DNA of 38,998 nucleotides from Chromatiales bacterium (GTDB lineage Bacteria; Pseudomonadota; Gammaproteobacteria; SZUA-152): the NCBI GenBank assembly GCA_026982475.1, contig JALSHB010000217.1, positions 1 to 38,998 of the forward strand, written 5' to 3'. Position numbers and translations under genes: made by a program. The notes under the pieces are model-generated. The model saw only the letters and a list, made by a program, of their open reading frames with translations, made no database searches and was not told where the DNA came from. This document shows positions 1 to 5,000 of this stretch, piece after piece (within the stretch, counting starts at the first letter, position 1; every line of letters starts with the position of its first letter).

Positions 1-1
1 T

Positions 2-520
2 GCAATCGAGGTAACCATCGCCGCTTACCTGAAACTGAACCCTGCAAACAGAGGTGGCAAATCTTATCCGAAGGTGGATGTTACGAAGTGGCTGCACAAT
101 TTCCACACCCGGCTTGATTTCTTCTTTAATGAGAACAAGGGCAGAGGGCTACCCGAACACAAGTCAAAGGAAGAGATTGTCTGGGAGCACGATCAGAGAA
201 ACGAACATTATCACGGCGGTGGCGCAGCGGTTCCAGAGCAGGCCACGCTGGAAGGCGTGCGCCAGACAGCGCTTTGGGTCTTCTCCGTGCTGTTTGATGT
301 GCCGAATATCGACCAGATACTCGCCGAAGAACTGGCGAAGAGAACAGCAACTCCGACCATACCGGATGATCTTGTCGTTCCTGAATACCCTGAGCCTTCG
401 ACCAGGGAGTATTCAGCGGCGCAGGCGAAAGCGATAGCGGCGGCCGCGCTGATTGGTCAGTGGGATGAGAGAAAGGAAGCAGATCTGGAGATAGTCAGGA
501 GGCTCGTCGATGAATTTTGA
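2..520 (+). CDS. C-terminal part of a protein with a HEPN-like motif (cut by window edge)
   Basis: The frame is open from position 2, so this is the 3' end of a gene that starts to the left of the window; the GTG at 74 is only an internal candidate start. The visible 172 residues are charged and probably helical. They contain R-N-E-H-Y-H (about codons 64-69), which fits the R-polar-x3-H signature of HEPN ribonuclease-like domains, followed by a hydrophobic helix (ALWVFSVLFDV). HEPN domains are common in abortive infection, toxin-antitoxin and CRISPR effectors; assignment of this protein to that fold is my inference from the motif. The stop codon overlaps the start of the next gene by 11 nt, so the two are very likely co-translated. 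The missing N-terminus could hold any partner domain. Confidence 0.6.
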   Translation, partial: AIEVTIAAYLKLNPANRGGKSYPKVDVTKWLHNFHTRLDFFFNENKGRGLPEHKSKEEIVWEHDQRNEHYHGGGAAVPEQATLEGVRQTALWVFSVLFDVPNIDQILAEELAKRTATPTIPDDLVVPEYPEPSTREYSAAQAKAIAAAALIGQWDERKEADLEIVRRLVDEF

Positions 521-3095
521 CGAATGGACGGGCATCCTGCGTGATGAGATTCAGGAGGATGAGCGTCATATCGATTACAGGGAAGGCCGCTGGAAGGTCA
601 AGGATCGGCGAGTGACTTGGCAACAGTTTGGGGGGCGAGTGTTTGATGCCCACCTTGATGTGTTCAGGTCATGTGCTCTCGATGTGCTGGGCGAGGTCGA
701 TCCCCAGTTGGATATGGCGCCGGAGGAGCGTTATGCCGCAGCAACGCAAGGAAAGGAGCTGCGACATTCCCGAAATCTAAGGGAGGGTATCGCACAAACT
801 ATCGCTTTGCTTGGCAATGACGGTGAAGCGCTCAAGCATTGTTCACATGGCAAAGCAAAGCTGACCGCTATTCTGATTGTCCGCGAGTTATTCGAGAAGG
901 ATGATTGGCGTATATGGGCAAGTCTCAACAGTTTCCTGCCGGCGATATCGGAGGGGGCGCCCGGTGAGTTTCTGGATGCGGTGGAAAATGCACTGCATAG
1001 TGAGGACGCGCCTTTCGATGAGCTGTTCAAACAGGAGGGCGGCGGTATCTTCGGTAGCACGTATCTGTCTGGTCTCTTGTGGGCTCTGGAGGGACTGGCA
1101 TGGAACGAGGACTACCTGGTAAGGGTTGCCACGATATTGGCGGATTTGGCGGCTCGCGATCCGGGTGGCCAATGGTCAAACAGACCAGACAACTCGTTAG
1201 TCTCGATATTGTTACCCTGGTATCCACAGACCCTCGCCCCGTTTGCAAAACAGTTGGCGTGTGTAAAGGCGGTTCGACAGGATCATCCCGATGTTGCCTG
1301 GAGTGTGTTGGTGCGTTTGCTACCTAATCAGCACCAGACAACATCAGGTACGCACAAGCCGTCATGGTTTATGGAGGTGCCTGACGATTGGACGCCGTCA
1401 GTGACCCACGCCGAGTACCGTAAGCAGATTGCCGAGTATGCGGAAATGGCCGTCGAGATGGCCTTTACAAATTTCGATAGGCTTGCTGATCTTGTCGGTG
1501 AACTGGATAACCTTCCGCAACCAGCACGCGACACGCTGATCGATTTTTTGTCCTCAGATGACCTTTCTTCCTTGGATGAGAAAACAAGACAGCCGATCTG
1601 GTCAACCCTTATGCGCTTCTCGTTGAAGCATCGTAGATACCAGGATGCAGACTGGGCGCTGCCGATAGACGTAGTAGAAAGATTGGAGGAAGTTGCGGGA
1701 AAACTGACTCCGGAATCACCCGAAGCACGATACCAGCATTTATTCACCGACGTTGATTCGGATCTATTCGAAGCAAGCGGTGACTGGGAAGAACAAGGCC
1801 GTTTGCTGGAAGAGAAGCGCCAGCAGGCTGTATCGGAGATATGGGATAGTGGCAATCTGGAGCGTGTCCTGGATTTTGCGAGGGTCGTTGCCTCGCCCTA
1901 TAAAGTTGGTTGGGCTTTTGCAAATGTAGAGGAGGCTAGTGCCGAAGCCAAACTACTGCCAGGCATGCTTGAGGCCGATGGCAAGGTTGCTCAATTCATC
2001 GGTGGGTATGTCTGGGTCAAGTACCAAACCCTGGGCGAGGAGTGGCTGGATCAACTATCCGCGGTGCAGTGGAATGCAGAGCAGCAGAGCCAGCTTCTGA
2101 TTCGTCTTCCGTTCGACAAGAATATATGGCGACTTGCAACTTCTTGGCTGGAAAGTGCCGAAGTGATGTATTGGGAGAGCGTGGGTGTAAATCCATACCA
2201 GGCCAAGGAAGAAGATCTTGGCCTCGCCGTTGATAAGCTGCTCCAATTTGGTAGGCCGATTGCTGCGTTGGATTGCCTGTATGCTCGTCTGCACAGTGGC
2301 TTGCAGCTGGAACATACCAAGACCATTTCTGCCTTGCTGGGCGCTCTATCTTCCGATGAACCAAGGGATACGCTGAATCAATATCATGTTCTGGAGCTGA
2401 TCAAGGCGCTACAAGAAGACCCAGATACCGACCCTGAAGACCTGTTCAGGGTTGAGTGGGCCTATGTGGCGCTGTTGGATCGTCATGGTGATGTCAGGCC
2501 CAAGCACTTAGAGCAAAAGCTGGCCAGTGATCCGGCCTTTTTCTGTGAAGTAATCCGGTTGGTTTATCTGCCAAAAGGGGTGGATAAACCAGAGACAGTT
2601 GATGAGGAAGCCAAATCTATAGCTGCGAACGCCTGGCGTCTTCTTCATGAGTGGAAACGTCCTCCAGGCCTTCATGATGACAATAGTTTTTCTGCTGAAG
2701 AATTCACTGCTTGGTTTGAATGGGTAAAAGAGCAGTGCATTGAGTCTGGCCATCTGGAAGTAGCGATGATAAAAGCTGGCGAAGTGTTGTTCCACTGCCC
2801 TGAGGACCCGGGCGGTTTGTGGATAAACGAGGATGTCGCGAATCAACTCAATGCGAGCGATGCGGGTGATATGAGAGATGGGTTCCGGACTGAGGTTTAC
2901 AACTCCAAGGGTGTCCACACGGTCGATCCTACAGGGCAGCCGGAAAGAGAGCTTGCTCAACAGTGGAGAGAGAAGGCTGGAGCCGTTGAGCAGGCTGGTT
3001 ATGCCCGGTTCGGCGCTACATTGAGGCAACTGGCTGACTCATATGAGCGGGAAGCCGAGCGGGTGCAGGCCGAACATGCCCAGAATGATGAGTGA
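510..3095 (+). CDS. Large all-helical protein, candidate sensor of a defence system
   Basis: The protein has 861 residues. The ATG at 510 is preceded by AGGAGG at 497-502 and overlaps the upstream stop codon. It has no signal peptide, no membrane segment and no P-loop that I can see. The sequence looks like stacked helical (TPR/HEAT-like) repeats rich in Trp, Leu, Asp and Glu. Stretches such as LLPWYPQTLAP (about residue 235) and HRRYQDADWALP (about 375) remind me of the helical C-terminal halves of large STAND-type NTPases linked to antiphage defence, but here they occur without the NTPase. This resemblance is from memory and is not a family assignment. The coupling to a HEPN-like protein and the position inside a tRNA-bounded accessory region suggest a two-gene defence or stress module. 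Function is unknown. Confidence 0.75.
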   Translation: MNFDEWTGILRDEIQEDERHIDYREGRWKVKDRRVTWQQFGGRVFDAHLDVFRSCALDVLGEVDPQLDMAPEERYAAATQGKELRHSRNLREGIAQTIALLGNDGEALKHCSHGKAKLTAILIVRELFEKDDWRIWASLNSFLPAISEGAPGEFLDAVENALHSEDAPFDELFKQEGGGIFGSTYLSGLLWALEGLAWNEDYLVRVATILADLAARDPGGQWSNRPDNSLVSILLPWYPQTLAPFAKQLACVKAVRQDHPDVAWSVLVRLLPNQHQTTSGTHKPSWFMEVPDDWTPSVTHAEYRKQIAEYAEMAVEMAFTNFDRLADLVGELDNLPQPARDTLIDFLSSDDLSSLDEKTRQPIWSTLMRFSLKHRRYQDADWALPIDVVERLEEVAGKLTPESPEARYQHLFTDVDSDLFEASGDWEEQGRLLEEKRQQAVSEIWDSGNLERVLDFARVVASPYKVGWAFANVEEASAEAKLLPGMLEADGKVAQFIGGYVWVKYQTLGEEWLDQLSAVQWNAEQQSQLLIRLPFDKNIWRLATSWLESAEVMYWESVGVNPYQAKEEDLGLAVDKLLQFGRPIAALDCLYARLHSGLQLEHTKTISALLGALSSDEPRDTLNQYHVLELIKALQEDPDTDPEDLFRVEWAYVALLDRHGDVRPKHLEQKLASDPAFFCEVIRLVYLPKGVDKPETVDEEAKSIAANAWRLLHEWKRPPGLHDDNSFSAEEFTAWFEWVKEQCIESGHLEVAMIKAGEVLFHCPEDPGGLWINEDVANQLNASDAGDMRDGFRTEVYNSKGVHTVDPTGQPERELAQQWREKAGAVEQAGYARFGATLRQLADSYEREAERVQAEHAQNDE

Positions 3096-3245: not shown

Positions 3246-3260
3246 TTACCATAATGGTAA
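3246..3260. promoter_or_regulatory. Palindromic operator candidate for the mqsRA operon
   Basis: TTACCATAATGGTAA is a perfect 7-1-7 palindrome. E. coli MqsA binds palindromes with ACC and GGT half-sites, so this is a plausible autoregulatory site. It lies between a TTGACT at 3241-3246 and a TACGAT at 3265-3270 (18 nt apart), where a bound repressor would block RNA polymerase. It also covers the ATG at 3254. Confidence 0.5.
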
Positions 3261-3688
3261 ATACTACGATCGTCAGCCGCTTTTCCGGCAGGCTTCCCCT
3301 TGCGGGCGAGAGCCGCAAGATTTCGGGCGGCCCCCTATATCCCGCCGAGGAAGTGCTGGCCCTGCTGGCGAACCCGGGCAGTCAAGCGATTCATGCGTGG
3401 ACCGCTAAGTGTGTCAGGGACATGCAGAAGTGGTCGCTGGACGCGGATGACCTGTGTGAGCTGCTGGCGATTGCGCTGAAGTCGGGGCGGTTTCTTGGTG
3501 CGGAGTGGTGTGTCCAGCGCCCCGATGGTCCTTGGGCGGCCTGTGATGCCTATGTGCTGGTGCGGCAGGAGTGGATCCCCTACGCGCACCGGGAAATGGA
3601 CATGGAGTACTACATCAAATACGCGATTGCGAAGACGGGAAAGGTTCTGCTGGTGGCTTCCTGCCACCCGCCGGAAGACAGGAGGTGA
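3254..3688 (+). CDS. mqsR: MqsR-family toxin of a toxin-antitoxin-chaperone operon
   Basis: The frame gives 144 residues; classical MqsR has about 98. The MqsR-like part starts near residue 28 (PLYPAEEVLALL), followed by helices around DADDLCELLAIAL and a strand region ending in YYIKYAIAKTGKVLLVASCHP, matching the RelE-like fold layout of MqsR ribonucleases, which cleave mRNA (mainly at GCU in E. coli). The identification rests mainly on its partners: an unmistakable MqsA gene follows after 4 nt, then a SecB-like gene. The start is uncertain, because the ATG at 3254 lies inside a probable operator, has no Shine-Dalgarno sequence and may lie upstream of the transcription start. I see no other ATG, GTG or TTG in frame before residue 35, so I keep it. 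Confidence 0.7.
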   Translation: MVNTTIVSRFSGRLPLAGESRKISGGPLYPAEEVLALLANPGSQAIHAWTAKCVRDMQKWSLDADDLCELLAIALKSGRFLGAEWCVQRPDGPWAACDAYVLVRQEWIPYAHREMDMEYYIKYAIAKTGKVLLVASCHPPEDRR

Positions 3689-3692
3689 CAAT

Positions 3693-4244
3693 ATGAGCGA
3701 TTCAGACAAGCTGTGCCCGATCTGTGGTGCGGGTCACTTGCAGCCTCAGGTTGGCAAGAGTCCTGTCGAGTACAAGGGTCAGGCCACGGAGCTCGATCTC
3801 CATTTTTCGGTCTGTGATGCCTGCGGGAGCGAGCAATCGGATGCCGCACAGCTGCGCGACAACAAGCGGGCCATGGTGGCCTTCAAGAAACAGGTAGACG
3901 GCCTGCTGACCGGTGCCGAAGTGCGTGCGCTGCGGGAGAAGCTGGGTCTGAGCCAGGCGGATGCCGCCAAGGTCTTTGGTGGTGGCCCGGTGGCCTTTTC
4001 CAAGTACGAAAGTGATGACGTGGCACAATCCGAGGCCATGGACAAGCTGCTACGGCTGGCCGCCGAAGATACCACTATCTTTGACGCGCTGGCGCGCAAG
4101 GCTGGGGTTGGGCAAGCGGTGGCCTGGACGAATGTCGATGCTGCCGTGATCAGGTCACCCGTACACAGGTCAGATCGTCCTCAGTTACGGGTAATTTCCA
4201 GCTCGACAACGGAAGAAGAACCGCACTGGAGCGATGCCGCATGA
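3693..4244 (+). CDS. mqsA: MqsA-family antitoxin with chaperone-addiction extension
   Basis: The protein has 183 residues; ATG 3693 is preceded by GGAGGT at 3681-3686, which overlaps the toxin's stop codon. The N-terminal zinc domain has C8-x2-C11 and C41-x2-C44, as in E. coli MqsA. The helix-turn-helix domain (about 67-118) includes LREKLGLSQADAAKVFGGG and AFSKYE, characteristic of MqsA. Unlike E. coli MqsA (131 residues), it has about 60 extra C-terminal residues containing AVAWTNVD and, at the end, PHWSDAA. In known toxin-antitoxin-chaperone systems such an extension (ChAD) makes the antitoxin unstable unless bound by a SecB-like chaperone. The SecB-like gene downstream starts in the stop codon (ATGA), which fits exactly. 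MqsA should neutralise MqsR and repress the operon. Confidence 0.9.
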   Translation: MSDSDKLCPICGAGHLQPQVGKSPVEYKGQATELDLHFSVCDACGSEQSDAAQLRDNKRAMVAFKKQVDGLLTGAEVRALREKLGLSQADAAKVFGGGPVAFSKYESDDVAQSEAMDKLLRLAAEDTTIFDALARKAGVGQAVAWTNVDAAVIRSPVHRSDRPQLRVISSSTTEEEPHWSDAA

Positions 4245-4756
4245 CGGCCAGCCCCGAGCTGCAACAGGCGATCGACAGCCTGAAGATCCGGGATGTCTAT
4301 CTGCGCGAACTCGATGCCCGTTGCCTGGGTGATTTCGATCCCAAATATGCGGCCGATCTCGACAAGCTTCTTGTTCAGCAGATGCATCTCGTCAGACAGT
4401 CGCAAATCGTGGAACTCGATGGCGAGGCCAGGCTGCTCAGGATATTTGTGCGCCTGGGTGCGCGGTGGGTAGATGCAAAGGAGCCGGACGAGGCGAGTTC
4501 CATCCGGGCGCTTGTCGAGTCCGAGTTTATTGCCGAGTATGAAATGGACGGCGCACTAGAGGAAGACGCCATCAACGAGTTCTCCCTGCAAAATGCCAGC
4601 TACCATATTTGGCCATACTGGCGAGAGTTGCTGAGCAGCCAGTGTGTGCGCATGAACTTGCCCAAGGTGATGCTTCCCATGGTGCAATTGGCGCACAACC
4701 GTCACCAGGAGGAATCCGGGAAAGCAGAATCTTCCGACGAGACAGCTGGGCAATAG
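4241..4756 (+). CDS. SecB-like chaperone of the MqsRA system
   Basis: The protein has 171 residues and its ATG overlaps the mqsA stop (ATGA), implying translational coupling. The middle and C-terminal part has the SecB layout: a strand region ending in EFIAEYEM, then EFSLQNASYHIWPYWRELLSSQ with the Tyr-x-x-x-Pro-Tyr-x-Arg pattern of SecB (which has YARE in that place), and then a MNLP segment like the NLAP/MNYL end of SecB. It is not the housekeeping SecB, which lies elsewhere in proteobacterial genomes. TAC-type SecB chaperones bind the antitoxin's C-terminal extension and allow it to fold; the extended MqsA supports this role. The three genes form one complete TAC operon in the accessory segment. 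Confidence 0.8.
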   Translation: MTASPELQQAIDSLKIRDVYLRELDARCLGDFDPKYAADLDKLLVQQMHLVRQSQIVELDGEARLLRIFVRLGARWVDAKEPDEASSIRALVESEFIAEYEMDGALEEDAINEFSLQNASYHIWPYWRELLSSQCVRMNLPKVMLPMVQLAHNRHQEESGKAESSDETAGQ

Positions 4757-4954: not shown

Positions 4955-5000
4955 ACTCATTATCCCTTGGTCCACGGTTCGAGCCCGTTCGGGCCCACCA
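4955..5000 (+). other. Displaced 3' fragment of a CAU-anticodon tRNA (attachment site)
   Basis: The stretch reads as the 3' half of a tRNA: anticodon loop CTCATTA, variable region TTGGTCC, T-arm with loop TTCGAGC, acceptor strand CGGGCCC, discriminator A and encoded CCA. The 5' half is absent. The anticodon CAU means elongator tRNA-Met or tRNA-Ile2. A lone 3' half is the standard trace of an element integrated at a tRNA gene. Orientation places the integrated element, including the TAC operon and the HEPN-like genes, to the left. One T-stem mismatch and CATTAT instead of the usual CATAAT suggest it is not under tRNA selection. Confidence 0.75.

Follow-up and report, generated by a model that had tools for sequence, protein, structure and literature searches.

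What do the two overlapping genes at the start of contig JALSHB010000217.1 from a Chromatiales bacterium encode, and do they act together in defence? The window analysed here is the whole stretch of 38,998 nucleotides, which starts at the first base of this contig (C217) of a 3.0 Mb assembly. An initial annotation, made from the letters of the window, had proposed that a protein with an R-x4-H HEPN signature and a very large helical protein form a possible undescribed defence module. The two reading frames and their 11-nt overlap were borne out by the ORF listing: gene 1 (2-520) codes for 172 aa in a frame that is open at the contig edge, and gene 2 (510-3095) begins with ATG and codes for 861 aa. 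The pair comprises the following features:

2..520, + strand: gene 1, HEPN-domain protein and predicted RNase effector (ORF; homologs L002, L003, L006 and L007; AlphaFold2 model of the L002 homolog with PDB matches).
197..214, + strand: RNEHYH, the HEPN R-x4-H motif; R66 and H71 of the open frame correspond to R108 and H113 in L002.
497..502, + strand: AGGAGG, the Shine-Dalgarno sequence of gene 2, within gene 1 and 7 nt upstream of the ATG (read in the sequence).
510..520, + strand: overlap of genes 1 and 2, ATGAATTTTGA; gene 1 ends in TTT TGA C, with gene 2 in the +1 frame.
510..3095, + strand: gene 2, 861-aa NTPase-free HEAT-like alpha-solenoid, predicted receptor/regulator (ORF, AlphaFold2, Foldseek and family searches).

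The profile searches that had been called for were run on both proteins, and neither gene matched Pfam, PADLOC or NCBIfam at E up to 1. The pair recurs, again with an 11-nt overlap, in a WOR-3 bacterium and in gammaproteobacteria, and hence is not a product of chance. The length of the overlap is identical in the window, L002, L003, L006 and L007, and AGGAGG before gene 2 is also kept in L002 and L003. Both genes have been under purifying selection (dN/dS ~0.10-0.18), values that give no sign of a fast-evolving recognition surface and that count against reading the pair as an immune unit. As the initial annotation had it, the pair lies in DNA of lower G+C content (52-54% over 1-3000 versus mostly 60-73% from 7 kb onward).

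The intact homolog of gene 1 in L002 has 214 residues, and comparison with it indicates that the N-terminal ~42 residues of gene 1 are absent at the contig edge. The missing 5′ end was sought on the other contigs of the genome and was not found; one match at E 0.44 was dismissed. The L003 contig stops at the same base as the window, and the two are 100% identical over nt 1-200, 90-92% identical to nt 600 and ~70% identical through most of gene 2. A stretch exactly common to two genomes is a usual cause of an assembler stopping; thus, the sequence upstream of the window is probably common to both genomes and was collapsed in assembly. The fall in identity from 100% to ~70% also hints at a recent swap of the effector end between the lineages of the window and L003, with the receptor differing.

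Gene 1 is predicted to have a HEPN fold with its motif at the canonical place. All five gene 1 homologs share R, E, Y and H of RNEHYH. The AlphaFold2 model of the L002 homolog (pLDDT 77) is helical to residue 158 and puts the motif at the end of helix 3 (98-113), ahead of helix 122-140, which is the location described for the HEPN superfamily (PMC3710099). A HEPN fold around RNEHYH had been set beforehand as the main point on which the initial annotation would stand or fall, and the best PDB matches of the model are indeed HEPN proteins. In Foldseek these come first, the best being 2hsb (probability 0.99, E 0.22), and the HEPN toxins 8xeh, 8yuf and 8xdj have probabilities of 0.69-0.87, with E-values of only 0.2-0.6. 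VIA-align gives Z 10.9 and rmsd 3.8 over 123 aligned residues for 2hsb, and nearly all of its first 30 rows are HEPN proteins (HEPN toxins, AbiV, Csm6). An RNase activity of gene 1 is probable.

HEPN relatives of gene 1 also occur without this solenoid. On Leptospira plasmids they carry RNELYH and lie beside an HNH endonuclease gene, as in the L. interrogans plasmid locus L061 (7995-8693, downstream of that gene). A HEPN domain more weakly related to gene 1 is found near R-M genes on a Methanomethylovorans plasmid, again without the solenoid. The viral contigs searched for gene 1 gave none.

Gene 2 was modelled with higher confidence (pLDDT 86.8) and is helical throughout except for a short N-terminal hairpin. 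The best structural matches of the model are HEAT/ARM proteins, namely importins, transportins, CAND1 and PP2A-A, with importin/CAND/karyopherin proteins leading in Foldseek; their structural Z of 8-10 is in the range usual for helical repeats and speaks for the type of fold, not for kinship. The P-loop GxxxxGK[ST] was scanned for in gene 2 and the other homologous chains and was absent, and no NTPase was matched by Pfam, in agreement with the earlier description of a very large helical protein without an NTPase motif. A sequence profile of 14 solenoid members gave only noise among PDB chains at E<=1. We read gene 2 as a predicted sensor-like, HEAT-like solenoid without an NTPase. By eye, the L013/L043 type of homolog gives the impression of a degenerate NTPase region.

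How might the two products be connected? In homologs that are not split, a conserved stretch, roughly LalAvLiGsWdEknesDievitqLLg-xxYdeWlrklReLLhxxdsPLxxknGxWkVxdR, links the effector to the solenoid. A junction profile was built only from homologs in which this stretch is unbroken, with 200 shuffled decoys as a control. In 5/5 pairs it hits gene 1 at its end and gene 2 at its start, with E 2e-6 to 2e-9, and it hits none of the decoys (0/200). In the window it divides as follows:

410..514, + strand: first half (helices 1-2) of a predicted winged-helix domain at the gene 1 C-terminus; profile positions 7-41 match win_g1 residues 137-171, E=2e-9.
513..647, + strand: second half (helix 3 and wing hairpin) of the predicted winged-helix domain at the gene 2 N-terminus; profile positions 42-86 match win_g2 residues 2-46.

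On the gene 1 side, the L002 model has helices at 181-193 and 201-213, with a low confidence of pLDDT 53-60; on the gene 2 side, the model has a helix at 3-14 and strands at 21-24 and 27-30. This order, helix-helix followed by helix-hairpin, is the basis on which the junction domain is predicted to be a winged helix (wHTH-like). From the sequences, the gene boundary cuts one conserved domain at the same place in all five HEPN pairs, the domain being whole in other homologs. Since the boundary divides a single conserved domain, the simplest reading is that both products must meet to complete it.

The codons at the junction are TTT TGA C, CTT TGA T or TTC TAA G in the window (510-521) and in the equivalents of L006 and L007, with gene 2 in the +1 frame. 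This resembles an RF2 frameshift site and may be coincidence. Between the window and L002 the junction is conserved at the nucleotide level (rank 45 of 3047 windows compared), and its RNA folds slightly better than shuffles do (z -1.9). Both properties are explained equally well by translational coupling and dual coding as by a frameshift.

The solenoid has a wide and patchy distribution. Homologs were found in Gammaproteobacteria, a Methanosarcinales archaeon, Nitrosospira, WOR-3 and Treponema, and at the level of phyla in Pseudomonadota, archaea, WOR-3, Spirochaetota, Actinomycetota and Bacteroidota. It is present in 7/369 sampled genomes of the class and 12/398 of the phylum (1.9-3%), and in 3/24 of the order. 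Twenty-two plasmid records carry it, including those of Rhizobium, Arthrobacter and Adhaeribacter, as do islands of E. coli (8/5426 chromosomes) and viral contigs; the phage records searched for gene 2 itself gave none.

Its N-terminal partners are likewise varied: a SIR2 NADase, HetE-N, HEPN and several uncharacterised domains, all types except HEPN and HetE-N having the large N-terminal domain and the solenoid in one chain. SIR2 is a known type of abortive-infection NADase. In L005 it is fused to the solenoid (PF13289 E=6.7e-11; the solved Sir2 structures 8jkz/8in8 E=2e-29), and it matches the pAgo-associated SIR2 of PADLOC (E=1e-101). In L012 and L035, HetE-N is encoded by a gene of its own, 106 residues long, upstream of the solenoid (PF20701 E=1.5e-40 and 6.8e-39). 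The initial annotation had regarded a separate nuclease and sensor as an unusual layout; the layout does occur, as one of several, and most homologs are a single chain. Homologs of gene 2 were found with gene 1, as had been anticipated, in L006 and L007 (inside R-M operons), L002 (free-standing) and L003, and elsewhere with other effectors. The HEPN pairs come from just five loci, of which three are closely related. In a maximum-likelihood solenoid tree, HEPN-bearing L006 is sister to L005 with SIR2 (support 99/99), and HEPN-bearing L007 is sister to L008 with another N-terminal domain (support 100/99). Because these sisters bear different effectors, the effector has been replaced while the receptor stayed, in an exchange on a common solenoid.

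By eye, the end of the HetE-N gene and the start of the solenoid gene have a similar TGxNxxG(N/D) stretch in L012 (9480-9865) and in L035 (787-1250), the latter a prophage-like viral contig. Such stretches recall amyloid signalling motif pairs. Two impressions of N-terminal domains gained by eye, a PD-(D/E)xK/Cap4-like nuclease in L009 and a DUF4062-like domain in L008, were not confirmed by Pfam and had only chance matches in the PDB; both domains are left unassigned.

The two chains probably make up an effector-receptor immune unit that works by abortive infection; complex formation, a phage trigger, abortive infection and RNase activity are the parts of this reading that we infer. The HEPN ribonuclease of gene 1 would be kept inactive at rest, with the HEAT-like solenoid of gene 2 serving as receptor, and the two chains would dock by completing the winged-helix domain that the gene boundary divides. 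The solenoid would bind an infection cue, which may be a phage protein or, in R-M-embedded relatives, a changed state of the restriction complex. Cue binding would free or dimerise the HEPN domain to cut cellular RNA, so that growth is halted before phage release.

The R-M-embedded relatives bear on what is sensed. In the type I R-M operons of L004, L005, L006, L007 and L008 the unit comes after hsdM and hsdS, and hsdR is next where the contig is long enough (the start of hsdR alone is visible in L005). The Hsd proteins of these loci were confirmed by Pfam, the short hsdS of L008 being assigned by position only. The hsdS stop and the effector start overlap by 4 nt in L004, L005, L006 and L007. 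The HsdM proteins of the five operons fall into three groups that are only 33-40% alike (those of L005/6/7 are 73-75% alike), and for this reason entry into the slot after hsdS probably happened more than once. In L006 and L007 it is the HEPN pair that sits between hsdS and hsdR, a position which we take to be that of the PrrC gene. As a side observation, another member in L068 (935-10040) is preceded by hsdM, hsdS and, between them, what looks by eye like a DUF1016-like ORF; a near-identical copy of this member in L067 is without these genes and beside transposase-like ORFs.

These operons speak for the alternative of a PrrC-like guard of restriction, in which HsdMS holds the solenoid inactive and a phage anti-restriction protein, by inhibiting the restriction enzyme, releases the HEPN domain. 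The module stands directly after hsdS in five operons of three HsdM groups, and this slot is the one held by PrrC, the HEPN anticodon nuclease of an hsdMSR cluster, whose mechanism is established (PMC3506569, PMC3710099). Against guarding, the pair in L002, where the full upstream sequence is present, stands alone with no hsd gene nearby, and a Pfam search with working controls detected neither hsdM nor hsdS in the window's genome. An R-M partner is thus not general, given the window's genome, and given the free-standing L002 as well, R-M is not needed to retain the pair. Furthermore, most homologs (in E. coli, on plasmids and on viral contigs) are free of R-M. A guard would have to treat the window copy as a derived orphan, or place its R-M genes in the unassembled upstream stretch. 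We regard guarding as the unlikelier course, though one with appreciable weight. Because free-standing members without R-M exist, direct phage sensing by the solenoid is favoured over guarding as the common ground of the family.

The mobile setting of the pair raises a further alternative. Its 3′ neighbourhood contains the following:

3254-3688: small ORF of a toxin-antitoxin-chaperone operon.
3690-4244: MqsA-like antitoxin gene (TIGR03830 E=1.6e-39).
4241-4756: SecB/CmdC-like chaperone gene (PD-T4-9_C model E=6e-7).
~4967-5000: 3′ tRNA-like end with CCA, GGTCCACGGTTCGAGCCCGTTCGGGCCCACCA (by eye).

The toxin-antitoxin-chaperone operon named in the initial annotation is thus real in its MqsA-like and SecB/CmdC-like genes, and similar ORFs were noticed 3′ of the pair in L002. 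The tRNA integration scar fared less well: the CCA end is legible by eye, and ARAGORN calls no tRNA; the tRNA-like end is likely an integration scar.

In such surroundings, gene 2 could merely be the antitoxin of a HEPN toxin in a pair that stabilises a mobile element, as the overlapping genes, the neighbouring operon and the HEPN toxins recorded in TA pairs (PMC3710099) would allow. An 861-aa solenoid is, however, far larger than an antitoxin, and at other loci, where its chain also includes SIR2 or another domain, it cannot be a degradable antitoxin of its own; we consider this explanation improbable. A cellular RNA-processing or regulatory complex with no defence role, as known for the HEPN proteins Las1 and MtlR (PMC3710099) and compatible with the purifying selection, is hardly credible for a family of such patchy presence, with plasmid and viral-contig carriage, R-M operons and effector exchange.

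The defence role of the pair, which the initial annotation had put forward from its surroundings, is well supported by context (R-M operons, plasmids and viral contigs), and on this we infer it still. Solenoid relatives joined to different toxins on prophages, plasmids and restriction operons point to an undescribed family of anti-virus immune receptors. More tentatively, and with somewhat less than even confidence, we propose that prokaryotes have an NTPase-free, NLR-like family of immune receptors whose hallmark is the 850-residue solenoid and whose effectors are plug-in parts. Its HEPN branch would be linked via a winged helix split over two genes, perhaps with +1 frameshifting at TTT-TGA-C as a further link, and the family would repeatedly have been set after hsdS as a type I restriction guard. 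NLR-type immune receptors are thought to require an NTPase for switching; if the proposal is true, a bare solenoid with a similar range of effectors would be another way to switch. Given its repeated entry into the PrrC slot, the old idea of suicide as a back-up to restriction could be tested with one shared regulator and various effectors. The split domain would be a precise, testable docking site of toxin to receptor.

Among known systems, no defence family in PADLOC covers the solenoid/HEPN pair, and open-access literature on the homologs' accessions and combined features yielded none. Coupling of HEPN or Sir2 toxins to R-M is already known: Makarova 2012 (PMC3506569) and Anantharaman 2013 (PMC3710099) both describe R-M operons with HEPN or Sir2 proteins and suggest that immunity and suicide are coupled, and a term search of their text found no mention of a shared solenoid or of one domain divided over effector and regulator. 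None of the profile libraries searched contains the common NTPase-free solenoid, its effector exchange or the split domain.

PrrC, from the EcoprrI type I R-M locus, is likewise an RNase effector of the HEPN kind embedded in such an operon (here L006 and L007); it is, however, one chain with an ABC NTPase, whereas the regulator here is an NTPase-free solenoid from a second gene, an ABC-type NTPase domain being absent from genes 1 and 2. HEPN-MNT toxin-antitoxin pairs share the HEPN toxin fold (8xeh and 8yuf are among the best matches) and the two-gene operon, with a nucleotidyltransferase as partner in place of an 861-aa solenoid. The 1283-aa A protein of PD-Lambda-4 (Vassallo 2022, PMC9519451) has a weak profile match to L064 over ~95 residues (E=0.0012); only 1/14 family members matches it (E=0.006), and the window protein does not. 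DSR1/DSR2 are large NTPase-free helical receptors with an N-terminal SIR2, as in L005, but SIR2 is just one of several effectors on the present solenoid, whose 14-member profile matches no PDB chain by sequence.

The initial annotation had likened gene 2 to the sensor half of STAND-type proteins standing alone. Homology to STAND proteins appeared in no search, the sequence of the solenoid matches no solved structure, and the P-loop NTPase (NACHT, AP-ATPase) that STAND/NLR-like systems such as Avs and bNACHT have between effector and sensor is lacking here. The layout itself is the same: variable, interchangeable N-terminal effectors, a wHTH-like linker, and a conserved receptor with a C-terminal helical-repeat superstructure.
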